This document shows, one piece after another, positions 4,390 through 64,000 of a stretch of DNA of 64,000 bases. Made by a program: the position numbers and the translations under genes. The notes beneath the pieces are model-generated. The model worked only from the letters and a program-made list of their open reading frames with translations. It did not search any database and was not told where the DNA came from. The DNA comes from an uncultured Desulfovibrionaceae bacterium. Lineage in GTDB: Bacteria; Desulfobacterota; Desulfovibrionia; Desulfovibrionales; Desulfovibrionaceae. Within the stretch, counting starts at the first letter, position 1. Every line of letters begins with the position of its first letter. The stretch lies in assembly GCA_944324045.1 (NCBI GenBank), contig CALUUT010000006.1:1-64000 (forward strand), in the 5' to 3' direction.

Positions 4390-5151
4390 TCACTGGACCG
4401 CGCCCGTGGGATGGATTACGGTATTGGAAAGTTGCCCGATGCCTTCAATTTCAACGGTGACCGTATCTCCGTCGTGCATGGGCCCCACGCCCGCGGGCGT
4501 GCCTGTGAGAATCACGTCGCCCGGGATGAGGGTCATGACGGAAGAAAGGTATTCCACAATCTGATATGGGTTTAAAATCATGTCGGCCGTATTTCCTTTC
4601 TGGCGCGTTTCGCCATTGATCAGGGTGACGACATTCAGATTGTTCAGGTTGGGCAGCTCGGTTTCAATCCATGGGCCGATGGGGCAGAATGTGTCGTAAT
4701 TTTTGCACCGGCCGCCCACGTCGGAAGCTGTTTGCAGGTTGCGGGCCGTAACGTCGTTGGCGCATGTGAATCCGAATATGTGTTTGGGAACGTCTTCCAG
4801 AGCGATATTTCGGGCTGTTTTGCCGATGACGACGGCCAGCTCGCCTTCATAGTCAAGCCTGGTCGCGCCGGCCGGGCAAATAATGTTTTGTCCCGGACAT
4901 ATCAGCGTCGTCGGCGCCTTCAGGAAAAAAATGGGAAGCGCAGGCTGTTTGAAGCGCAATTCTTCCGCGTGGGTCCGGTAGTTCATGCCCATGCAGATGA
5001 TTTTTGAAGGCGCGACCGCGGGAAGCAGACGAAGTTGGTTCAGGGCTATGGGCTCGGAAAATCCAAGTTCCTTGTTCAAACATGTCGCATGTTCGGCATG
5101 AAGAAGGGCAAAAAAAATTTTTCCCTGATATTCGGCGCGGATGATACGCAT
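4390..5151 (-). CDS. Fumarylacetoacetate hydrolase (FAH) family protein, 253 aa
   Basis: FAH-fold hydrolases/decarboxylases act on acyl pyruvates and related 2-oxo acids with a divalent metal. The conserved core is seen: KIICMGMNYRTHAEE (residues 50-64), FLKAPTTL, then YEGELAVVIG (101-110) with the metal-binding Glu102 and Glu104, and ANDVTARNLQ with Asp133. Length matches the short one-domain members (acylpyruvase/oxaloacetate decarboxylase type). The substrate cannot be read from sequence; bacterial members next to RidA would suit clean-up of oxo acid or enamine by-products, but that is inference. Start 5151 follows AAAGG. Located between RNase J and ridA on the same strand. Confidence 0.85.
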   Translation of the reverse strand: MRIIRAEYQGKIFFALLHAEHATCLNKELGFSEPIALNQLRLLPAVAPSKIICMGMNYRTHAEELRFKQPALPIFFLKAPTTLICPGQNIICPAGATRLDYEGELAVVIGKTARNIALEDVPKHIFGFTCANDVTARNLQTASDVGGRCKNYDTFCPIGPWIETELPNLNNLNVVTLINGETRQKGNTADMILNPYQIVEYLSSVMTLIPGDVILTGTPAGVGPMHDGDTVTVEIEGIGQLSNTVIHPTGAVQ

Positions 5152-5195
5152 GGCGGCTACCTTTGGTTGAAAAATGACGGAATGTTCGCAGCGCC

Positions 5196-6854
5196 TTAGA
5201 TAGTGGCGACAAGCGGCACGACGACCGGGTCCCGGCCCAGGGCGGAGCGGAAAAAGCGGCGCAAGGCGGTTCTGATGCGTTCAGTCAGCTTGGGCGTATC
5301 GCCGGGCGGCATCTCCTCAAGGATATCCAGCACCAGCGTTTTCGCATCTTCCAGAATATGGCTGTAGTGTTGCTCAAAGACAAATCCCTTGGAAAGAAGT
5401 TCCGGGCCGTGGAGAACAGCCCAGGTTTTTTCATCCACAACCAGCATGACGACCACAAACCCTTCATCGCCCAGGATATGCCGCTCGCGCAGCAGAAAAT
5501 GTCCGACATCCCCCACGCCCTTGCCGTCAACCAGGATGGAATCGACCGGGACCGGCTCTTCAAACCTGATGCCATGCGGCCAGAATGTGACGGGCATGCC
5601 GTTTGTCAGGATGAGAATATTGTCCTTTTCCACCCCGCACTCTTCAGCCAGCCGCGCGTGTTTGACAAGATGGCGGTATTCTCCGTGAATGGGAACGAAA
5701 TATTTGGGGCGCACGGCCTTTAGCATGGCCCGCAATTCATCCTGATGGGCATGACCCGAAGCGTGTATTTCCTCAAGCGCGTCATATAGCACCTCGGCGC
5801 CCAGTTTATACAGATTATTGATAAGTTTACTTATGGCCCGCGAGTTTCCGGGAATGATGCGCGACGACATGACCACGGTATCGCCGTTTGTGATCTGGAG
5901 TTTCTTGTATTCGTTTGCGGCGATGCGCGACAGCACGGACAGCGGTTCGCCCTGGGAGCCTGTCACCAGAAGAACCTGTTCGTTTTCCGGAAGCATGGGC
6001 ATGGCTGAAACGTCACGATAAACGCCTGGCGGAATGCGCAGTAAGCCGATGTTTCGCGCCATTTCGATGTTATTTATGAGACTGCGGCCATCCACCGCCA
6101 CTTTTCGGCCGAATTTCTCGGCAAGGGCGAATATGGTCTGGATGCGGCGGATATTGCTGGCAAAAAGGGTGATGATGATGCGTCCCGGCGCATCGCTGAA
6201 TATGTGCCTGAAACGTTCGTGCACTGTGGCTTCAGAGAGCGAGTGCCCTTTGTTTTCCACATTCGTGGAATCTGAAAACAGAGCAAGCACGCCGTCTTCG
6301 CCCGCGAATTCGCGTATGGCGGCGATATCCGTGTTCCAGCCCGGATCGCCGTTTTTGTCGATTTTAAAGTCGCCCGTATAGAACATGCGTCCGGCCGGGG
6401 TTTCCAGGCCCAAAGCGTATCCCTGCACAATGGAGTGGGAAACCGGGAAGAAACGTACCCCGATTCCCGCAAGTTCAAGCTGTTGAGCCGGGGATACCGG
6501 GATCAGAACGGCCTGTTCAAGAAGTCCGTGTTCGCGCAGCCGGTGCTCGACAAGGGCGAGAGTGAAGGGCGAGCCGTATAAAGTAGTCGGCATGAGGGGA
6601 AGAAACCAGGGCAGAGCGCCTATATGGTCTTCATGTCCATGGGTAAGAACGATGCCTTTCAGGCGTTCCTTGTTCTGTACGATATGGTCGAAACGGGGAA
6701 TGACCACGTCAACCCCAAGGTGGTGGTCTTCTGGAAACATGAGTCCGCAATCAATAAGCAGCATCCCTTTGTCCGTGGACAGCAGGGTGCAGTTCAGGCC
6801 AATTTCCCCAAGGCCCCCAAAAGAGGTGAATGTCAATGAATCGGGATCGGCCAT
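5196..6854 (-). CDS. rnj: Ribonuclease J (beta-CASP metallo-beta-lactamase), 552 aa
   Basis: RNase J is a zinc-dependent 5'-3' exo- and endonuclease for mRNA turnover and rRNA maturation in organisms that often lack RNase E. The metallo-beta-lactamase signature THGHEDHIGALPW (His72, His74, Asp76, His77) is intact, followed by SHSI, the FYTGDFKID region, the beta-CASP insert (LFASNIRRIQ, VDGRSLINN, VTGSQGEP) and PIHGEYRHL; a short C-terminal domain completes the usual length. Translation from 6854 is chosen because MADPDSLTFTSFGGLGEIG aligns with the family N-terminus and GGGAGA lies before it; the open frame to 6944 adds unrelated residues. First gene of the likely rnj-FAH-ridA unit. Confidence 0.92.
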   Translation of the reverse strand: MADPDSLTFTSFGGLGEIGLNCTLLSTDKGMLLIDCGLMFPEDHHLGVDVVIPRFDHIVQNKERLKGIVLTHGHEDHIGALPWFLPLMPTTLYGSPFTLALVEHRLREHGLLEQAVLIPVSPAQQLELAGIGVRFFPVSHSIVQGYALGLETPAGRMFYTGDFKIDKNGDPGWNTDIAAIREFAGEDGVLALFSDSTNVENKGHSLSEATVHERFRHIFSDAPGRIIITLFASNIRRIQTIFALAEKFGRKVAVDGRSLINNIEMARNIGLLRIPPGVYRDVSAMPMLPENEQVLLVTGSQGEPLSVLSRIAANEYKKLQITNGDTVVMSSRIIPGNSRAISKLINNLYKLGAEVLYDALEEIHASGHAHQDELRAMLKAVRPKYFVPIHGEYRHLVKHARLAEECGVEKDNILILTNGMPVTFWPHGIRFEEPVPVDSILVDGKGVGDVGHFLLRERHILGDEGFVVVMLVVDEKTWAVLHGPELLSKGFVFEQHYSHILEDAKTLVLDILEEMPPGDTPKLTERIRTALRRFFRSALGRDPVVVPLVATI

Positions 6855-7081
6855 GCATGTTCTCCCATAAAAGTTTATCCATGCTACAGGAAAACGGCAT
6901 GATGTACAACTCCTTACCGTCAGTTTTATAAATGGGAAAAGCATACGGCGCGCAGATCAGGCGGCGCGTATTCACACGAATATGCAGTCATGAAGAGACA
7001 TGCGGCATGCATGAATGCCTGAAAATGCGCGCTTTGGGGCGGTGGCGGATGCGGTTCGATAAAAAGAAAATCGTTGCGGCG

Positions 7082-53265: not shown

Positions 53266-54633
53266 ATGCGTGACAAGGTGAAAAGAATACATATGGTCGG
53301 CATCGGCGGCTCCGGCATGTGCGGAATCGCTGAAGTGCTTCTTAACCTGCATTATACGGTCAGCGGCTCGGATATTTCCGATTCTCCGACTGTGCGGCGT
53401 CTGCGCGGACTGGGCGCGGAAATCCATATTGGCCACAGCGCGGAAAATTTGCAGGATGCGCAGGTTTTGGTCAAATCGTCGGCGGTGAGGGATGACAACC
53501 CTGAAATCGCGGCCGCCGCGTTGCGGAATATCCCCATTATCCCGCGCGCGGAAATGCTGGCGGAATTGATGCGCTTGAAAACAGGCATCGCCGTGGCCGG
53601 CACGCATGGCAAAACAACCACGACCTCGTTGACCGCAACTATTTTTGATGAGGCCGGTCTTGATCCGACAGTCATCATCGGCGGCCGTCTAAACGCCTAT
53701 GGCGCCAACGCCCGTATGGGTGCGGGCAATTACCTTGTGGCGGAAGCCGATGAATCCGACGGGTCGTTCCTGTGCCTTTTTTCCATTATAAATGTGGTGA
53801 CCAATGTGGATATGGATCATCTGGATCATTATCCGGACCGCGAATCCATAGAAAATGCCTTTGCCGCCTTTATGAATAAGGTTCCGTTTTACGGGTGCAA
53901 TATTGTTTGCGGCGATGATCCCGGCGTGCGGCGCGTGTTGCCGCGCGTGAACCGTCCGGTCGTGACGTACGGCTTTGGCGAGAACAACGTCATTCGCGCG
54001 GTCAATGTGCAATGTACTGAAGAGAGCCGTTTTGATGTGGAAGTGCGCGGCAAGAGAATCGGCCGGGTCGCGCTTGGGCAGCCGGGCAGGCATAATGTTT
54101 TAAATGCGCTTGCCGCCATGGGAGTTGCCCTGCAGACCGGGATTGCGCCGGAGCGGTGCATCGCGGGACTTTCGCATTTTAATGGCGTGGGAAGAAGGTT
54201 CGAGCGTAAGGGCGAGCGCGATGGAGTGCTTGTGGTGGATGATTACGGGCATCATCCGGCCGAAATCGCCGCAACCATAGCCACGGCAAGGCAATGTTAT
54301 CCGGACAGACGTCTTGTGGTCGCCTTTCAGCCGCATCGTTTTTCCCGAACCAAAGCTTTGTTTGGAGATTTTTGTCTGGCGTTCAAGGATGTGGACAAAC
54401 TTTTGCTCACAGAGATTTATCCGGCCTGCGAAGCGCCGATTCCGGGGGTTTCCGGACAAAGCCTGGCTCAGGGGATACGGCAGGTCACAAGCACCGACGT
54501 CACCTATTGTCCGACGTTTGACGATATTGTCGCGCTTCTTCCTGAAACGCTCAAGCCCGGCGATTTGTTCATCACCATGGGCGCCGGCACGATTTATACA
54601 GTGGGCGTCCGGTTTCTGGAGGGCGGGCAGTGA
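53266..54633 (+). CDS. murC: UDP-MurNAc-L-alanine ligase MurC, 455 aa
   Basis: Adds the first amino acid, L-Ala, to UDP-MurNAc. [58 protein letters not shown] (ATP loop and following helix), [22 protein letters not shown] and [14 protein letters not shown] are typical. It starts directly after the murG stop. Its stop overlaps the murB start by three bases. Confidence 0.96.
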
Positions 54634-55556
54634 TCAGACCAGGGCCGCTGTTGCGCGAACGCACGACCATAGGGCTTGGCGGAAAAGCGCGCGCGGAGAT
54701 TACGCCCGAAAGAGAAGCCGATCTGGAGAAGATTCCGGGGATGCTGGCGGAACTGGGCGGCTCTGCATTGGTTTTGGGCGGCGGGAGCAATTATATTTTT
54801 GCGGACGGAGAATTGCCTTTGGTCGTCATTTCCCTTGGCCGGCAGGCTTTTGGATATAAGCCGCGTTATATGGGGACCGTACATTCTTCTGACGGCGAAA
54901 AGGTTTTGGTTCGTGTCGGCGGAGCGGCCAGAATGCCTGGAGTTTTGCGTGAGCTTGCGCGGATGAAGCTTTCCGGACTGGAGGGGCTTGCAGGCATACC
55001 GGGCACAGTGGGCGGGGCGTTGGCCATGAACGCGGGGTCATTTGGCTGCGAAACCCTGCAATGCGTGCACAGCGTCCGGATATTTTCGCCGGAACACGGT
55101 ATTGTGGATGTGGAGCGAAGCGCGTGCGAGCCGGTTTACAGACACTGTGAATTTATTGTCAAAGGGCGGAAAATGCCGTCATGGTTTCTGATTTTGGATG
55201 CGGTTCTGGCGCTTTCGCCTAATGCCGCGACCCCGGAAAAAACAATGCGCAGCGTGTTGGCGCGTAAAAACGCGACGCAGCCAGTGGCCGCTCAAAGCGC
55301 GGGATGCGTTTTTAAAAACCCCGCGCCTGGAGTAAGCGCCGGCAAATTGCTGGATGAGGCCGGATTTAAGGGAAAATCGCGCGGCGGGATATTTTTTTCC
55401 GAAAAACATGCTAATTTCCTTATTAACAGCGGCTGCGGCCGCAGTGAAGACGCCGTCCATTTGTTGATTGAAGCGCGGCGCGCGGTTGCGGCAAGAACAG
55501 GGCATGTTTTACAGCTTGAGGCGCGGTTGTGGCCGCCGGTAGCGGAACTTGAGTAA
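54630..55556 (+). CDS. murB: UDP-N-acetylenolpyruvoylglucosamine reductase MurB, 308 aa
   Basis: FAD- and NADPH-dependent reductase making UDP-MurNAc. [48 protein letters not shown] (FAD-binding) and the C-terminal [26 protein letters not shown] and [11 protein letters not shown] identify it. In SAGCVFKNP a Cys stands where E. coli MurB has the proton-donating Ser; several other bacteria share this. The start is GTG at 54630, overlapping murC, with GGAGGG upstream. Confidence 0.94.
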
Positions 55557-55591
55557 ACGCGGCGCGGCTTTCCCGCGTCGGGCACGGGATC

Positions 55592-56437
55592 ATGGTTCAA
55601 GACAGATTTGCCAGAAATACGCGTCGGACGACGCGCGCATCCAATGCATACAACAGGCAGACGCGAAGAAGCGGAAATCGGGGAAGGTTTTTTGGCGCGC
55701 TTATCGTGCTGTTTTTAAAACTCATACTTGCGGCGGCGTTATTTGCGGGGGTTGGATATGGCCTTGTGTATTTGTATCGCATGGCCACTACATCGAATTA
55801 TTTTGTTATCAAGGATGTTGAAATATCGGGAAATGAGCGCCTTGAATATCATGACGTCATCAAGGAGGCCGGACTTGAGCCCGGATTAAACAGTCTGTCC
55901 GTATCCATTGACGATATTGAGATGCGCTTGAAAAAAAATCCCTGGATTAAAAAGGTGTCGGTCACGCGCAAGCTTCCGGATAGGGTGCAGATAGATATTG
56001 AGGAATATACGCCGAAACTTTGGGTGCTTGCTGATGGAAAAATGCAGTACGCCGATATCAATGGAAAGGTTATTGCGCCGGTTGAGCCTGTGCGATTTGT
56101 GTCCTTGCCTATTTTGGAGGTGGAAAAGGGAGTTGCCGGACCTGATGAGCCGATAGCGGACATTTTGCAGAAATTGAATGCCGCGGGGCTGCCGGTGCAA
56201 CTGGATGCCGCATCATGGATACATGTGGGCAAGACAAATGGAATTGAGATTTATTTTGAAAATACGAGATTACGACTGGGCGTCGGACTTGATGAATTGT
56301 CCGTTAATCTTGAACGACTGGCAAGAGTATTGCAGGATCTGAACAGACGAGGAGAGCTGGGGCTTGCGAGGGAGGCCGGAGCCTACGGACCGAATGTCTG
56401 GGTGCTGCTTAAAGAGCCGCTTTCAAACGACTCGTGA
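55592..56437 (+). CDS. ftsQ: Cell division protein FtsQ, 281 aa
   Basis: Bitopic divisome protein. A very basic cytoplasmic N-terminus (about 1-32), a transmembrane helix (about 34-57), then the POTRA domain (FVIKDVEISGNERLEYHDVIKEAGL, about 70-140) and a beta domain with NPWIKKVSVTRKLPDRVQIDIEEYTP-type segments (read in parts). Length is typical. It follows murB by 35 bases and precedes ftsA by 20. No ddl gene lies between murB and ftsQ. Confidence 0.93.
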   Translation: MVQDRFARNTRRTTRASNAYNRQTRRSGNRGRFFGALIVLFLKLILAAALFAGVGYGLVYLYRMATTSNYFVIKDVEISGNERLEYHDVIKEAGLEPGLNSLSVSIDDIEMRLKKNPWIKKVSVTRKLPDRVQIDIEEYTPKLWVLADGKMQYADINGKVIAPVEPVRFVSLPILEVEKGVAGPDEPIADILQKLNAAGLPVQLDAASWIHVGKTNGIEIYFENTRLRLGVGLDELSVNLERLARVLQDLNRRGELGLAREAGAYGPNVWVLLKEPLSNDS

Positions 56438-56457
56438 CAGGACGCAGGGGAAGCATC

Positions 56458-57684
56458 ATGGCGAAATCGGAATTTATTGTGGGTCTGGATATTGGCACGA
56501 CGAAAATTTGCGCTGTCGTGGGCGAAGCGACGCCCGACGGCGTGGATGTGGTCGGTATAGGCAACAGTCCGTCAACCGGGCTGAGAAAAGGCGTTGTGGT
56601 CAATATTGAGCACACTGTCCAATCCATCAAGAAGGCGCTTGAAGAGGCCGAACTTATGGCCGGCTGCGAGATACGTTCTGTGTATGCGGGCATTGCGGGA
56701 AGCCATATAAAAGGCTTCAACAGCCATGGCGTGATTGCGGTCAAAGGCGGAGAGGTCGGCCAGAAGGATGTGGAAAGAGCGCTGGATGCGGCAAAGGCGG
56801 TCGCCATACCGCTTGACCGGGAAGTTATTCATATTCTGCCCCAGGAATACATAGTGGATGCTCAGCGCGGCATTGTGGACCCGCTGGGCATGGCCGGAGT
56901 TCGCCTTGAGGTCAAGGTGCATATCGTTACCGGCGCGGTGACGAGCGCTCAGAATATCGTGCGCTCCTGCCACCGAAGCGGGCTTGATGTTTCAGATATC
57001 GTTCTTGAGTCGCTGGCCTCAGCCAAGGCCGTTTTGACGGAGGAAGAACGGGAGATCGGCGTGGCGCTTGTGGACCTTGGCGGCGGCACCACGGATATCG
57101 CCGTGTTTGCCAATGGCTCCATAAAACATACGGGCGTTTTGGCCCTTGGCGGTCAGAATTTGACCAACGATATTGCCTTCGGCTTGCGTACGCCCATGAT
57201 AAGCGCGGAAAAGATTAAAATTAAATATGGTTGCGCCATGCCCGATATGGTAGATCATAATGAGGTGATAGAAGTGCCAAGCGTGGGTGGTCGCGAGGGA
57301 CGGTGCCTGTCGCGACAGGTTCTCGCTGAAATTTGCGGACCGCGTATGGAAGAAATTCTTTCGCTTGTGGATCAGGAGCTTGTGCGGGCCGGGTGTAAAA
57401 ACTCAATTGGCGCAGGCGTGGTGCTCACTGGAGGAACCGCGCTTATGCAGGGAACCCAGGAGATGGGAGAGCAAATTTTCAACCTTCCCACGCGAATCGG
57501 CTATCCCCGCAATATCGGCGGACTGCGTGACGTTGTAAATAGTCCAAAATTTGCTACTGCAGTGGGACTGCTTTGCTATGGCGCGGAAATGGAAGGTGTC
57601 AACAGGACGATACGCATTCGCGATGAAAATATGTTTGGGAAGATACTTTCCCGTATGAAAAGATGGTTTTCAGATATTTCCTAA
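56458..57684 (+). CDS. ftsA: Cell division ATPase FtsA, 408 aa
   Basis: Actin-like protein that anchors FtsZ to the membrane. FIVGLDIGTTKICAVVGE (phosphate 1), EYIVDAQRGIVDPLGMAGVRLE (1C region), VALVDLGGGTTDIAVF (phosphate 2), GAGVVLTGGTALMQG (adenosine loop) and a C-terminal amphipathic segment FGKILSRMKRWFSDIS for membrane attachment are seen. AGGGGAA lies before the ATG. ftsZ follows after 49 bases. Confidence 0.97.
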   Translation: MAKSEFIVGLDIGTTKICAVVGEATPDGVDVVGIGNSPSTGLRKGVVVNIEHTVQSIKKALEEAELMAGCEIRSVYAGIAGSHIKGFNSHGVIAVKGGEVGQKDVERALDAAKAVAIPLDREVIHILPQEYIVDAQRGIVDPLGMAGVRLEVKVHIVTGAVTSAQNIVRSCHRSGLDVSDIVLESLASAKAVLTEEEREIGVALVDLGGGTTDIAVFANGSIKHTGVLALGGQNLTNDIAFGLRTPMISAEKIKIKYGCAMPDMVDHNEVIEVPSVGGREGRCLSRQVLAEICGPRMEEILSLVDQELVRAGCKNSIGAGVVLTGGTALMQGTQEMGEQIFNLPTRIGYPRNIGGLRDVVNSPKFATAVGLLCYGAEMEGVNRTIRIRDENMFGKILSRMKRWFSDIS

Positions 57685-57733
57685 TCGAAAGAATTAGGAT
57701 AGGATGCGTGAAGGCACTGACAAGGAGTGGGAT

Positions 57734-59014
57734 ATGGATTTTGAAGAACTGGGATATCCCGGCGTTACTAAGATAAAAGTTATCGGCGTGGGCGGCGGCG
57801 GCGGCAACGCTGTAAACAATATGATCGAGTCCGGCTTGCAGGGGGTGACGTTTATCGTCGCCAATACGGATAAACAGGCTCTTGGCCTGTCAAAAGCGGA
57901 GCGGAAAATTCAGCTTGGCGAAAAGCTTACCCGCGGGCTTGGCGCGGGAGCGAATCCGGAGCGGGGACGCGACGCCGCGCTTGAAAGCCAGGAAGCCATT
58001 CGGGAAGCCATTGGCGAAAATACGGATATGGTCTTTGTGGCGGCCGGCATGGGCGGCGGAACAGGAACTGGAGCCGCTCCCATCATAGCCAAGACGGCAA
58101 AGGAGCTTGGAGCGCTTACTGTCGGCGTTGTGACCAAGCCGTTTTACTTTGAAGGCCGGCGGCGGCAGGAAAGCGCGGAACGCGGAATTGAAGAATTCCG
58201 GCAGCAGGTTGACAGTCTTATCACGATTCCCAATGACCGGCTTTTGACTCTGGCGCCTAAAAAGGCGACCATGATCGAAATGCTGAAAAAAGCTGATGAG
58301 GTTTTGTATCAGGCGGTACGCGGCATTTCCGACCTTATCATGGTTCCGGGGCTGATCAACCTGGATTTTGCCGATGTGAAGGCCGTTATGGGCGAAGCTG
58401 GGCTCGCCATGATGGGTTCAGGAGTGGCAAGCGGGGATTCCCGCGCCAAGGAAGCCGCCGAACGCGCCATTTCAAGCCCGCTGCTTGAAGATATTTCCAT
58501 TAATGGCGCAAGCGGCGTGATTATGAACGTAACCGCTTCGCACGATGCGACCATGGCTGAAGTCGCCGACGCCATGACCATTATTCAGGAAGCGGCGCAT
58601 GAAAACGCCAATGTGTTTATGGGCGTGGTGTTTGACGACAGCATCGGCGATGAAATGCGCATCACCGTCATTGCCACGGGCATTGAGCCCAGGCCGGCCA
58701 TGGCGCCGGGCATGGGCGGCGCAAAGGTCGCCGCGCTTGGCGGCGCGCGTTCCCCTGTCCCGGCGGCGGCGCGTCCCGCTTCACCCGGTTTTACCCGTGG
58801 GAGCATGCCGCAAAATATGGGCAATGAGAATGTTCAGGGCGGCAAAAGCGCTGTTTTGCATACAAGTCTGCCGTCGGAGCTGCGCAGGCCTGTGCAGACG
58901 TCCATGGAACCCAAACGTTCGGCCATGCATACGCCGGGCGAAGACACATTTGTATTTGACGTTAACGACGATGAAATGGAAATTCCGGCTTTTATTCGCA
59001 GACAGGCGGACTAG
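57734..59014 (+). CDS. ftsZ: Cell division GTPase FtsZ, 426 aa
   Basis: Tubulin-like GTPase forming the Z-ring. [25 protein letters not shown], the GTP loop [15 protein letters not shown], and the T7 loop region [11 protein letters not shown] are intact. A variable linker (about 330-410, rich in Pro/Ala) leads to the conserved C-terminal peptide [13 protein letters not shown] that binds FtsA. AAGGAG lies seven bases before ATG-57734; an ATG ten codons earlier (57704) is less well placed. Last gene of the cluster, before a strong terminator. Confidence 0.97.
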
Positions 59015-59190: not shown

Positions 59191-60051
59191 TCAGTGTCCG
59201 ATATGCGCGGCCTGTTCTTTAAGTCTTTGAATGCGCTCCTGTATGGGCGGATGGGTTGAAAAAAGGGAACTCAGCCCGCCGACCAGTGGATTGACGATAA
59301 ACATATGCGCTGTGGCCTGTGTTGCATGCATGGGAGGCAACTGCTTGGAATAGGCGTCCAGCTTTGCCAGCGCGCCGGCAAGATAGAGAGGGTTGCCCGC
59401 AAGTTCGGCGCCGGTGTCGTCCGCGAGATATTCTCTGGAGCGGGAAATGGCCAGTTGAATCAACGTGGCCGCAATGGGGGCGATAATGGCGAGCCCTATG
59501 GCGGCCAAAGGGTTGCCGCCGCCGTTTTCATCGTCCCTGTTTCCGCCGCCGAAGATCGCGGCGAACTTGAGAAAGCTTGCAAGCGACATGATGACGGTCG
59601 CCATAACGGCCGCGATGGTCTGTATGAGGATATCCCGGTTTTTGATATGTCCAATTTCGTGCGCCAGAACGCCTTTGACTTCTTCCGGAGTCAAAAGCTG
59701 CATTAAACCGCTGGTCACGGCGACGACGCCATGTTCGGGGTTGCGGCCCGTGGCAAAAGCGTTTGGCGCGTTTTCGTTGATGATGCAGATGCGCGGCATC
59801 GGGATATGCGCCCTGGCCGCCAGTTCTTCTACCATTTTATATAATGCGGGAGCGTCTTCCCGCGAAAGCTCTTTGGCGCCGTACAGCGAAAGCACAATTT
59901 TGTCGGAATACCAGTAACTGCCGACATTCATGATGACGGCAAGCGCAAAGGCGAACATGATTCCTGTTTTTCCGCCGATTGCTCCGCCGATGAGTATGAT
60001 AAGCGCGGACAATGCCGCTAAAAATATTAACGTCTTAATCTGACTTGTCAT
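59191..60051 (-). CDS. htpX: Membrane zinc metalloprotease HtpX, 286 aa
   Basis: M48-family protease of the inner membrane that cleaves damaged membrane proteins alongside FtsH. Two hydrophobic segments at the N-terminus (about 6-25 and 30-46), AHIPMPRICIINENAPNAFATGR, the zinc site VLAHEIGHIKNRD (HEIGH 131-135), then two more hydrophobic segments (around 147-165 and 183-200) and SREYLADDTGAELAGNP supplying the third ligand. Length is typical. AAGGAC precedes the ATG; the 250-base gap upstream (60052-60303) shows no clear promoter. Confidence 0.95.
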   Translation of the reverse strand: MTSQIKTLIFLAALSALIILIGGAIGGKTGIMFAFALAVIMNVGSYWYSDKIVLSLYGAKELSREDAPALYKMVEELAARAHIPMPRICIINENAPNAFATGRNPEHGVVAVTSGLMQLLTPEEVKGVLAHEIGHIKNRDILIQTIAAVMATVIMSLASFLKFAAIFGGGNRDDENGGGNPLAAIGLAIIAPIAATLIQLAISRSREYLADDTGAELAGNPLYLAGALAKLDAYSKQLPPMHATQATAHMFIVNPLVGGLSSLFSTHPPIQERIQRLKEQAAHIGH

Positions 60052-60303: not shown

Positions 60304-61041
60304 TCACATGCAGCATCCATATCCTGCGCGCACACGCGATACAAAACGCCGTACAAGCTCTTTATCTTTGCGGCCGTCGGGACCTTCCAAGCGTGTATGG
60401 GCGTCTACGCCGTCCGGATGCACGCAACGGACGCCTTGAGTGACGTTATGCGGGCCCAATCCGCCCGCAAGAATGACCGGTTTGGATACTTTGCGGACAA
60501 TCAGGGAACTGACCGCCCAGTTATGCGCTTTTCCGGTAGCGCCGTCGGCATTTGAAATGGGGTCGTGAGTGTCGGTTATAAAGGCGTCCACATATGGTTC
60601 CAGCGTTTGGGCAAGGCTTGACAATTCGCGGCGATTGTCGCGCTTTTCATTTCCTTCGGTCCATTCCCGCACGACGAGACTTTTTATGATGAAAAGATGC
60701 GGAGCCATGCCGCGAAGTTCCAAGAGCTCATCGGCCGGAATATTCCCATGCAACTGTATAACGCTCATCCCCAGAAAGCGGCAGAGTTTCTGAATTTCAG
60801 CGGCCTTATCAAGATAGACGATGCAGACCGGCACAACGCCGGACGGAAGAGCGGCGGCAATGCGCGCCGCCGCGGATTCATCAATGTCAGGCGTATTTAC
60901 GGGCAATTTCAGGGGAAAACCTATGCCGTGCACGCCGCGTTCGGCCAACATAAGGGCTTCTTCTTCATCATGCACGCCGGATACCTGGATGTATCCGCCG
61001 TATTTTAATCTTTCGGCAATTTGCTGAATATGCTGGTTCAT
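60304..61041 (-). CDS. TrpF-like (beta/alpha)8-barrel protein lacking the catalytic Cys, 245 aa
   Basis: Resembles phosphoribosylanthranilate isomerase. IQLHG (95-99), the catalytic-type Asp157 in FITDTHD, GATGKAHNWA, LAGGLGPHNV (191-200) and VDAHTRLEGPDGRKD match the TrpF pattern. The general-base Cys is replaced: the N-terminal strand reads YIQVSGVHDEEEA with Ser21 where TrpF has K-I-C-G, and GFPLKLPVN replaces the usual GF-x-F-x-x-x-SPR loop. A standalone paralogue group with a similar motif appears to exist, but its reaction is unknown to me. It overlaps the double ABC gene by four bases. A 245-residue length is slightly above TrpF. Confidence 0.78.
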   Translation of the reverse strand: MNQHIQQIAERLKYGGYIQVSGVHDEEEALMLAERGVHGIGFPLKLPVNTPDIDESAAARIAAALPSGVVPVCIVYLDKAAEIQKLCRFLGMSVIQLHGNIPADELLELRGMAPHLFIIKSLVVREWTEGNEKRDNRRELSSLAQTLEPYVDAFITDTHDPISNADGATGKAHNWAVSSLIVRKVSKPVILAGGLGPHNVTQGVRCVHPDGVDAHTRLEGPDGRKDKELVRRFVSRVRAGYGCCM

Positions 61042-62579
61042 GCGTCTTTCACCTGGCCGCAGTAAAGGATGCGGCCTTCATGCAATTGTAATGTATGTGT
61101 AATACAGCGGAGTTGTTCCTGCGGCCTGTGGGTGATATAGACAAGCTGCGTTCCGGTCTCAGCGAGGGAATCCAGGGTCTCCAGGAATGCCGCGCGCGAG
61201 TCGCAATCAAGTCCGGAACAGGGCTCGTCAAGCAAAAGCAATTTTGGCTCGTGAACAATACTGCGGCAAAGAAGAAACCGCCTGAGCCTTCCATACGACA
61301 TATGTCTGGCCGGCTGCATGGCATACTGGGCTATGCCCAGACGCTTCATGCATATGCCGGCTCTTTCGCGCATTTCTTCCGTCGGCGTGTCATAGAGTCC
61401 CACGCTGCCGAAAAAACCGGACAACACAATGTCTTCACCACATAAATTCGGGTGATACATGGCCTGGAGTCGGTCGGAGACCAGGCCAAGACGCCGCCGC
61501 AGATCGGGCATGAAAAACGGCCCGCTCCTGCCGAACCAGCGCAGCGTTCCGCCCCAGGCGTGGTGATCTTCTCCCCAAAGCATGCGCAGAAGGCTGGTTT
61601 TCCCGGCGCCGTTTTCGCCGGTTACGGTCCAATGCTCTCCTTCTCTCACAGTCCAATTGATATCCGTGAGCACCTGAACTCCATCCAGAAACAGATCGAT
61701 GTGTTCAAGCTCCAGGATGGGCGCTCCAGGCGCGACGGTGTGCGGCATCTGTTTTGTTGCTGGGGCAGGCGGCGTTTTTTTCTTCTCATGATGGTCGTGC
61801 GCGAGAATGCTAAGCGGAAGCACTTCCCGCAGAGGGCCTGAAGCGGAAACCCGGCCGTCGCGCAGAGCCAGAGCATGAGTGACGCATGGCGGAAGATCGT
61901 CAAGACGATGGGCGGCGATGATCAGGGTTGTCGTCTGCGCTATACGGTCTAAAAGGTCATGCAGGTCTTTGCTTGACGCCGCATCCAGCCCATCGGAAAA
62001 TTCATCCAGAACCAGAAAGCGCGGTTTGGCCGCCATGGCTCTTGCCAAGAGCATCCGGCGTAATTGCCCCTGAGACATTGATGAGACGGGAATATGAAGC
62101 AGAGGTTCGATATTGAGGCTTTTGGAGAGCGCATGCGCCAGCTGTTTCGTAGCGCGTTTTTCCTCTTCCGATGGCTCGCCATACAGGAGTTGTGTTCCGG
62201 AAAAACCGGTCAGGAGAAGCTCTTCGCCGGTTATATTCCAACCTTGGCGCATATACTCCGTCTGCAATTCCGGCGAGACGACAGCCATATGGGGTTTGGC
62301 CGCAATAGGGGACGTTTCCGGCCTGCCGTCAATAAACCAGGTGATTCCCGTGTGTCCATCCGGCCATTGATTTCCAAGCACGACCCGCAGAAGCGTCGAT
62401 TTTCCCGCGCCGTTATGGCCGAATACAGCCCAATGTTCGCCGCTGCGCACGGTCCAGTCGATTTTATCCAGCGCTTTGCATTCCGTTTCTCCTGCGCTGT
62501 TTTTATATGTCACAGAGACGGAATCCAGAATAAAGAGAGGCATGCTGGCCCTGTCGGGAAAAGAAATATGTTCAGGCAT
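61038..62579 (-). CDS. Double ABC ATPase without permease (ModF/PhrA-like), 513 aa
   Basis: Two complete nucleotide-binding domains in one chain. The first has GHNGAGKST (54-62), signature SMSQGQLRRMLLARAM and LDEFSDGLD; the second GENGAGKTS, signature MSYGRLRRFLLCRSI and LDEPCSGLD. His switches are seen in AAHRLDD and ITHRPQE. There is no membrane segment and no permease gene nearby. The closest architecture is ModF/PhrA, linked by name to molybdate transport and by report to photorepair; the true role of that family is unclear. Start 62579 has AGGA before it; an internal Met (62543) is the alternative. It sits between the PHP phosphatase and the TrpF-like gene. Confidence 0.85.
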   Translation of the reverse strand: MPEHISFPDRASMPLFILDSVSVTYKNSAGETECKALDKIDWTVRSGEHWAVFGHNGAGKSTLLRVVLGNQWPDGHTGITWFIDGRPETSPIAAKPHMAVVSPELQTEYMRQGWNITGEELLLTGFSGTQLLYGEPSEEEKRATKQLAHALSKSLNIEPLLHIPVSSMSQGQLRRMLLARAMAAKPRFLVLDEFSDGLDAASSKDLHDLLDRIAQTTTLIIAAHRLDDLPPCVTHALALRDGRVSASGPLREVLPLSILAHDHHEKKKTPPAPATKQMPHTVAPGAPILELEHIDLFLDGVQVLTDINWTVREGEHWTVTGENGAGKTSLLRMLWGEDHHAWGGTLRWFGRSGPFFMPDLRRRLGLVSDRLQAMYHPNLCGEDIVLSGFFGSVGLYDTPTEEMRERAGICMKRLGIAQYAMQPARHMSYGRLRRFLLCRSIVHEPKLLLLDEPCSGLDCDSRAAFLETLDSLAETGTQLVYITHRPQEQLRCITHTLQLHEGRILYCGQVKDA

Positions 62580-62656
62580 GGGGCATCCTGCATGTGCGGT
62601 ATTTGCTTATGCTGCGCCGCATGTGCGCGCGGTTTTTGAGGGCGTTTTATTGCCGG

Positions 62657-63478
62657 TCAGAATGTTCGTTCGTGCATCACGCCGTTCTGGAAAAAAACGC
62701 TGCTGGCATACCCGTATTTCCGGGCGTAATCAGCCAGTTCGTCGAATCCCCAGGCCACAGTATCCGCACTGTGCGCATCAGAGCCAAAGGTAATGGGGAT
62801 TCCGATCTCCGCGGCGATGCTCATAATTTCCGGACCGGGATAGATTTCTTCGCATGGCTTGCGCAGGCCGGCGGAAGAGATTTCCATGGCCAGTCCATTT
62901 CGTTTCACGGCGTTAAGCGCCATGCGCACCAGTTCAAGCGAGCTGCTTTGTTTGAGCCAGGTATGAAACCGATTGACGCTGAATATTTTTATAATATCCG
63001 GATGAGCCAAAATATTGGCCATGCCGGATTCGGCAAGGGAATGCACGACATGAAAATAATGCTCATAATGCGCGAAGCTTTCTTGCAGTGAAAGCGCGCT
63101 CCAGTCGCTGCTTTTGGCGTCGAAACCCCATTTGTCAAGGAAATGGATCCCGCCGATGATATAGTCAAACGGCCATGCCGCTCTCGCCTCGTTCATGAAT
63201 TCTTTTTCTTTGGGCAGATAGTCCAGTTCCAGGCCAAGAAGCACTGTGACGCCCGCGTCATTCTTTTTCAGGGCCTGTACGGAATGGATGTATTCCTTAA
63301 AGGTAGCAGCCAGATGGTCTCTGTATTCATGAGCATACGCATAGGCGAGCGGTCGGGGAGAGTGTTCGGAATATCCCAAAACTTCAAGTTTTTTTTCTTT
63401 GGCTTGGGCGAACATGGCCGTTACGGAATCATTTCCGTGAGAATGATTGGTATGAGTGTGCAAGTCGATGCGAATCAT
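62657..63478 (-). CDS. PHP-domain phosphatase, histidinol-phosphatase (HisK) type, 273 aa
   Basis: Metal-dependent phosphoesterase. The PHP motifs are seen in order: RIDLHTHTNHSHGND (residues 3-17), LGYSEHSPRPL, LLGLELDYLP, IIGGIHFLDKWGFD, ILAHPDIIK and ITFGSDAHSADTV. This order matches HisK/YtvP histidinol-phosphate phosphatases, though PHP proteins also act on other phosphate esters. The next gene (double ABC) starts 77 bases on, and the TrpF-like gene follows; co-transcription is likely. Confidence 0.85.
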   Translation of the reverse strand: MIRIDLHTHTNHSHGNDSVTAMFAQAKEKKLEVLGYSEHSPRPLAYAYAHEYRDHLAATFKEYIHSVQALKKNDAGVTVLLGLELDYLPKEKEFMNEARAAWPFDYIIGGIHFLDKWGFDAKSSDWSALSLQESFAHYEHYFHVVHSLAESGMANILAHPDIIKIFSVNRFHTWLKQSSSLELVRMALNAVKRNGLAMEISSAGLRKPCEEIYPGPEIMSIAAEIGIPITFGSDAHSADTVAWGFDELADYARKYGYASSVFFQNGVMHERTF

Positions 63479-63626
63479 GGCTGTGTGTGTTTTGTTTATG
63501 CGCTGGCCGTGCCCTTATTTTGGCCTGCAGAACATTTTGATGCGCACGTGGGAGAGCGCGGTCCAGTCTTTTGGGGAAAATGTCGCTTTTTTGGCATTTG
63601 GGCGCGCGATGCGCGGCTTGCGGCAT

Positions 63627-64000
63627 TTAGGTCGTCTTGCCAAGGAGTTTCAGCGCGATGCTTCGCGCGGCCCGCCGTCCCGCGCCCATGGCCTCGATGA
63701 CTGTGGCCGCGCCGGCTACGATATCGCCGCCGGCATACACTCCCGGAATGGATGTTTCCCCCGTCTTTTCGTCAATTTTGATATATCCATTGTCGTCCAG
63801 GGTCAAGCCGGGAGTATTGCCAAGAAGCACCGGATTCGGCCTAGTGCCTACGGCGATAATGGCAAGATCGGTCATAAGGTCGGTATATGCTCCTTCAATG
63901 GGGATGGGGCGGCTGCGTCCTGACGCGTCAGGCTCGCCCATGCGCATGCGCTGAAGTCGAACGGAGCGGAGCTTGCCCGTGGAATCGGCTGTGAACGCAA
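63627..64000 (-). CDS. GltD-like NAD(P)H/FAD oxidoreductase, C-terminal part (cut by the window edge)
   Basis: The last 124 codons of a gene entering from the right edge. TDLAIIAVGTRPNPVL, GLTLDDNGYIKID and IPGVYAGGDIVAGAATVIEAMGAGRRAARSI are the typical end of the FAD/NAD(P)H domain of glutamate synthase small subunit and its relatives (GltA/GltD, NfnB-like). GGDIVAGAATVI is the FAD-contacting GGD motif. The start lies outside the window, so the exact member cannot be named. It is 148 bases upstream of the PHP gene. Confidence 0.82.
   Translation of the reverse strand, partial: AFTADSTGKLRSVRLQRMRMGEPDASGRSRPIPIEGAYTDLMTDLAIIAVGTRPNPVLLGNTPGLTLDDNGYIKIDEKTGETSIPGVYAGGDIVAGAATVIEAMGAGRRAARSIALKLLGKTT

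Follow-up and report, generated by a model that had tools for sequence, protein, structure and literature searches.

A cysteine-less TrpF paralogue linked to a ModF-like tandem ATPase in Desulfovibrionaceae-like bacteria

The window analysed here covers bases 1 to 64,000 of a contig of 86,758 bases (C6) in the 2.55-Mb genome of an uncultured Desulfovibrionaceae bacterium. Four open reading frames lie on the minus strand at its right edge: the first (63627-63998) is truncated by the window boundary, and those at 62657-63478, 61038-62579 and 60304-61041 follow it at spacings of 148, 77 and -4 bases, in agreement with the first-pass annotation of this DNA. The last two are the main subject of this study. 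The gene at 60304..61041 (minus strand) encodes a TrpF-like barrel of 245 amino acids (aa), here called TL, which PF00697, NCBIfam, AlphaFold and residue counts identify as a phosphoribosylanthranilate isomerase paralogue that lacks the catalytic cysteine. It overlaps by 4 bases the gene for a ModF-like soluble tandem ATP-binding cassette (ABC) ATPase of 513 aa (61038..62579, minus strand; Pfam ABC_tran, NCBIfam and motifs). A PHP phosphatase and the end of a flavoenzyme complete the row, and the families first named for the four genes (Pyr_redox_2/GltD type, PHP/HisJ, tandem ABC_tran with ModF as its best match, and PRAI/TrpF) agree with our own assignments.

TL scores 56.2 bits against the Pfam family PRAI (PF00697), above the cut-off, and its AlphaFold model is confident (predicted local distance difference test, pLDDT, 96.4; predicted template modelling score, pTM, 0.93). 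TrpF structures head both structure searches made with this model (Foldseek and VIA-align), the latter giving Z 25.5 to TrpF 4aaj (root-mean-square deviation 1.9 over 198 residues) and Z 24.6 to TrpF 1nsj (2.3 over 204 residues). Fold and Pfam match, together with public records that label close relatives of TL phosphoribosylanthranilate isomerase, speak for a second ordinary isomerase, as in the public annotation. We consider that reading very improbable: TL falls far below every listed NCBIfam TrpF equivalog cut-off (best score 94.3 against 215), and the residues of the active site do not agree with it either. The residue counts draw on proteins of the fetched loci: 90 different TL sequences and 41 further members of PF00697. 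Cys7 of T. maritima TrpF is, we assume, the catalytic cysteine. Its column holds Ala in 83 TL rows, Ser in one (the window protein, at codon 21, 60979..60981 on the minus strand, placed by alignment to the TrpF chain 1lbm and by the counts), Cys in one and a gap in five, so that the cysteine is gone from 84 of the 85 readable rows; the other PF00697 proteins have Cys in 34, Tyr in six and a gap in one. Gln takes the place of Lys5 in all 84 TL rows that can be read at that column. At Arg36, presumably the arginine that holds anthranilate, the window TL has Pro and Arg occurs in 0 of 90 rows, this column being less surely aligned. Asp126, which we take to be the catalytic aspartate of TrpF, is kept in 90 of 90 rows, the window TL included (codon 157, 60571..60573, minus strand; alignment to TrpF and residue counts). 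The phosphate loop carries an invariant His in 90 of 90 rows, at codon 215 of the window protein within the motif DAHT (60397..60399, minus strand; TL alignment).

To score the occurrence of TL, 149 sampled family genomes were searched at a threshold of E 1e-45 with a profile (A1) of 38 rows from 39 relatives; L041 was omitted for a stop in its reference. A codon-usage gene caller had overlooked TL in 6 of the 39 loci, and those genes were recovered by tblastn. TL is present in 48 of the 149 genomes, spanning 19 genera. All 48 contain a further, ordinary PF00697 gene (TrpF), split between contigs in two assemblies, which also argues against TL being the ordinary isomerase; in the window genome it is a TrpC-TrpF fusion on a different contig, beside other trp genes (names by eye). 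TL therefore coexists with ordinary TrpF. The scores of the two kinds of gene do not overlap, the lowest TL standing at 225.6 bits and the highest other PF00697 protein at 206.9. In a sample of 297 genomes from the phylum, seven among the matches listed have E values below 1e-70, which places them with TL, and the match after them is at 1.4e-45. Across phyla, 556 of at least 594 pattern matches encode a relative by profile search, and the best 80 of these 556 form our cross-phylum set. On the tree TL needs a single label change; support for the TL branch itself is weak (79/43; 78% of bootstrap trees), and that for the grouping of TL with a second cysteine-less PF00697 group is good (99/96). 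On these grounds we regard TL as a distinct, cysteine-less TrpF paralogue, a conclusion that we hold firmly. The second group (L161, L162, L163, L164, L166 and L148) reads QIYS or QIYG where the KICG motif stands and has VDSxT in the phosphate loop.

A literature search limited to open-licence PubMed Central papers found no description of the TL family. Databases list this family, which spans many phyla, under the name of a tryptophan enzyme despite its lost catalytic cysteine, and metabolic models that rely on the TrpF name are likely to be wrong at the TL gene.

The ModF-like protein has two ABC_tran stretches by Pfam, and both of its ABC domains carry Walker motifs (Walker A and Walker B, two of each). 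ModF-like genes are common in the family (117 of 149 genomes at E 1e-40). Linkage was counted over the 48 TL genomes with the best ModF hit per genome at the same threshold. The two genes lie within 5 kb of each other in 25 of the 48 genomes and in 13 of the 19 TL genera, where chance would predict about 0.3% per genome; they are adjacent in 15 genomes from 7 genera. In another 15 genomes ModF lies elsewhere, including one (G135) where a ModF end adjoins TL at a contig edge, and 8 have no ModF hit. The surroundings of the pair vary by genus: ComFB-PHP-ModF-TL-HtpX in some, PHP-acyltransferase-ModF-TL or ModF-TPR protein-TL in others, and elsewhere a setting near small IF-1-like and cold-shock-like genes. 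At one locus (L035), ModF and TL form a single in-frame reading frame of 847 aa with a linker. Apparent fusions at L037 and L104 proved to be gene-caller artefacts; only that of L035 reads as real. We regard the link between TL and the ModF-like ATPase in this family as firm. The first-pass annotation had proposed a neighbour analysis of the double ABC and TrpF-like pair and named rare adjacency elsewhere as an outcome that would speak against it. Since the pair recurs, and is fused in one case, that objection falls away. The recurrent pairing with TL offers a direct route to probing the function of the ModF-like ATPase in these bacteria.

In two family genomes of one genus without TL (L186 and L190), an inositol-monophosphatase-family (CysQ-like) gene follows ModF on the same strand. 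A CysQ-like gene stands beside ModF in L200 as well, the ModF of which failed a stricter cut-off.

The name ModF itself suggests that the ATPase and TL could serve molybdate or tungstate handling. ModF (NF008186) is the best NCBIfam match of the ATPase, and several loci have ThiS-/ThiF-type genes upstream of TL (L053:4217-7121 and L043:5725-6857, the latter by cluster membership), in L053 directly after an aldehyde ferredoxin oxidoreductase. However, the match of 270.3 bits does not reach the equivalog cut-off of 459. The accessible text of a fitness study of Desulfovibrio vulgaris (PMC10102598) names no ModF- or TrpF-like gene among its chlorate and tungsten fitness genes, the strain's own ModF and TL content being unchecked. 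We hold a molybdate or tungstate role to be highly unlikely.

Upstream of ModF, the gene at 62657..63478 (minus strand) encodes a 273-aa HisJ-family phosphatase of the PHP type, possibly a histidinol-phosphatase. It passes the HisJ model TIGR01856 (137.5 bits, cut-off 90.2) and narrowly misses NF005596 (199.8 against 202). The genome has no other HisJ-family gene, and a HisN-family gene in the same genome scores below its cut-off (164.7 against 275.15). A study of missing amino-acid genes that includes D. vulgaris Miyazaki F mentions neither trpF nor PHP in its accessible portion (PMC5764234). In 15 of 39 ModF rows (L154 and L098 duplicate other rows), a PHP gene precedes ModF at a distance of up to three genes, and 4 of the 15 are without TL. 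PHP thus adjoins ModF also where TL is absent, so the parts combine in different ways. Judged from its family and position, the PHP protein may be the cell's histidinol-phosphatase, a partner of ModF and TL, or both. Immediately upstream of PHP, where relatives have a ComFB-family gene of about 96 aa, the window has merely the 148-base gap (63479-63626).

At the edge of the window, 63627..64000 (minus strand) holds the 3' end of an NfnB/GltA-type flavoenzyme (TIGR01316) that continues beyond it and is probably outside the system. On the contig past the window (locus L002) it is complete, with 473 aa (4628-6049), and overlaps a partner gene of 285 aa (6033-6890). The complete flavoenzyme passes TIGR01316, the GltA-type model (542.6 bits, cut-off 471.75), and the partner passes NF004862 for a sulfide/dihydroorotate dehydrogenase-like subunit (390.4, cut-off 220). 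The two are, we presume, NfnB and NfnA. With its partner, the flavoenzyme is probably an ordinary NfnB-type enzyme unrelated to ModF and TL. Other relatives have Pst-type transporter genes (types by eye) ahead of the same cassette instead. These observations do not bear out the first-pass proposal of one four-gene system, and the sole HisJ-family PHP could serve histidine synthesis. A single transcript from the flavoenzyme through TL is possible, because a promoter-like site lies upstream of the 285-aa partner gene and site matching found no minus-strand terminator-like site in the 148-base gap, although such matches are weak evidence; a second promoter-like site, equally weak, lies before HtpX.

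This HtpX-type membrane protease (59191..60051, minus strand; Peptidase_M48 and HtpX models, synteny) is, in some relatives, part of one conserved block with these genes and is probably outside the system too. Ahead of it on the plus strand (54630-59014) are MurB-, FtsQ-, FtsA- and FtsZ-like reading frames (names by eye). Locus L037 also starts with an FtsZ-like end, so the Fts/HtpX gene order may be shared.

The neighbours of TL differ outside the order. Fifty TL loci from outside Desulfovibrionales were counted, with families checked on example members. A uracil phosphoribosyltransferase adjoins TL on the same strand in 14 of them, a PsuG-like gene is nearby in 11 and a non-ribosomal peptide synthetase (NRPS)-type gene in 10; an RluA-type pseudouridine synthase adjoins TL in 6. 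Many of these settings are gene clusters of the indigoidine/C-nucleoside type. Among loci without the uracil phosphoribosyltransferase cluster, pseudouridine synthase is the top neighbour family (6 of 127, with 127 of 136 neighbours scanned), represented by the same six. No PHP gene lies near TL in any of the 50. On plasmids the gene orders read TL-upp-EamA-tautomerase-PsuG-alkene reductase-PRPP (phosphoribosyl pyrophosphate) synthetase-NRPS in Streptomyces lavendulae, TL-upp-NRPS-tautomerase-PsuG-EamA in Corynebacterium aurimucosum and TL-upp in A. vitis. In its accessible text, the paper on the C. aurimucosum plasmid notes that the pigment cluster contains a homologue of phosphoribosylanthranilate isomerase (PMC2830990). 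According to a review, likewise accessible in part, the uracil phosphoribosyltransferase MinD helps to shield the minimycin producer (PMC8724604), and excerpts of a 2026 report describe a trpF recruited near the showdomycin cluster, not identified as TL (PMC13055916).

Other TL loci show further arrangements. In L088 (5718-6683) TL has a C-terminal Smr domain and directly follows an RluA-type pseudouridine synthase; TL proteins of similar length (312-317 aa) occur in L094, L102, L103 and L105. In the Syntrophobacteraceae loci L107 (6738-7976) and L114 (6686-7942), TL comes directly after a short gene resembling that of cysteinyl-tRNA synthetase (413 and 419 aa).

Because TL keeps the aspartate and the phosphate loop, we infer from its sequence that its ligands belong to the phosphoribosyl class. 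The neighbours of TL in distant relatives make a pyrimidine or C-nucleotide substrate a lead by analogy, and the links to uracil phosphoribosyltransferase and a pseudouridine enzyme provide a concrete ligand class to try. In our proposal, the substrate or ligand of TL is a phosphoribosyl compound other than the tryptophan intermediate, and in these bacteria TL works with the ModF-like ATPase; we see the case for it as evenly balanced. TL would be a TrpF paralogue that has given up the proton-moving cysteine, the nearby lysine and the anthranilate-holding arginine needed for phosphoribosylanthranilate isomerisation, while retaining the barrel, the phosphate loop in modified form, and an aspartate capable of ribose ring opening. 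We infer its reaction and the role of ATP as follows. TL would bind a 5-phosphoribosyl compound, most plausibly a pyrimidine C- or N-nucleotide (for example one like pseudouridylate), and would open, trap or pass on its sugar. In Desulfovibrionaceae-like bacteria the ModF-like double ATPase could use ATP to deliver, release or sense the ligand, and the PHP phosphatase, where present, may strip phosphate from the product. The phosphoribosyl route imagined in the first-pass annotation survives in so far as it fits the TrpF features kept by TL; its extension to a single four-gene system is not supported.

Several observations weigh against this proposal. ModF is frequent without TL, given 117 genomes with the one and 48 with the other, and at E 1e-40 eight of the 48 TL genomes are without a ModF hit; neither gene, then, strictly needs the other. 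Part of the adjacency, in genera 1, 21 and 38, is plain shared gene order. No ModF model match was seen near TL in other families of the phylum, in loci with 1.5-kb flanks only, and ModF is near TL in 0 of the 50 loci outside Desulfovibrionales. In other phyla the contexts of TL are highly varied. The model of the L035 fusion has no defined packing of ATPase and barrel (linker pLDDT below 50, pTM 0.62). Furthermore, PsuG (PF04227) is missing from all 149 family genomes, that of the window included, so the C-nucleotide lead comes from distant relatives alone.

Some of these points would also suit neighbours with nothing but gene order in common, the PHP protein being the histidinol-phosphatase, the flavoenzyme NfnB, and ModF and TL having separate jobs. 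PHP as the sole HisJ-family gene, the syntenic HtpX block of the three genera and the genomes in which ModF is distant or not found all fit such a view. Linkage in 13 of 19 TL genera, in differing surroundings and with one fusion, argues against it, and we think it rather improbable. It is likewise unlikely, if somewhat less so, that TL is a catalytically dead phosphoribosyl-binding barrel that serves the ModF-like ATPase as a sensor or a regulatory subunit. Loss of the cysteine, Lys5 and Arg36 with fold and phosphate loop kept fits such a protein, as do its fusion to an ATPase in L035 and intact Walker motifs in both ABC domains. However, invariant Asp126 exceeds the need of pure binding, and TL occurs without ModF in other phyla.

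A bolder form of our proposal would have the family found a new class of enzymes, by which C-nucleotides (pseudouridylate and natural analogues) are opened or broken without the need for PsuG. TL could act in self-protection within indigoidine/minimycin-type clusters, in pseudouridine handling beside RluA-type synthases, and with the ModF-like ATPase and PHP in PsuG-less sulfate reducers. We consider this improbable as it stands.

Compared with known systems, TL shares with TrpF the barrel fold, ring-opening aspartate, glycine-rich phosphate loop and overall length. It differs in lacking the catalytic cysteine, in Gln for Lys5, in the loss of Arg36 (Pro in the window TL) and in the invariant phosphate-loop His; its gene also lies outside any trp operon, with a true TrpF present in all 48 sampled TL genomes. 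ModF (NF008186), a tandem ABC ATPase annotated for molybdate, likewise combines two ABC domains in one soluble protein, whereas the window ATPase stays at 270 bits against a cut-off of 459 and has a recurrent TrpF-like partner. The PHP protein upstream of ModF exceeds the cut-off for HisJ histidinol-phosphatase (TIGR01856) but recurs beside ModF and, in the window genome, lies outside any his operon. The indigoidine/minimycin-type (C-nucleoside) clusters of actinobacteria differ in that ModF and PHP are not in them, while the window genome is without a PsuG-like gene and no such cluster was seen at the window locus; what they have in common with it is a TL gene of the same family, there next to a uracil phosphoribosyltransferase.

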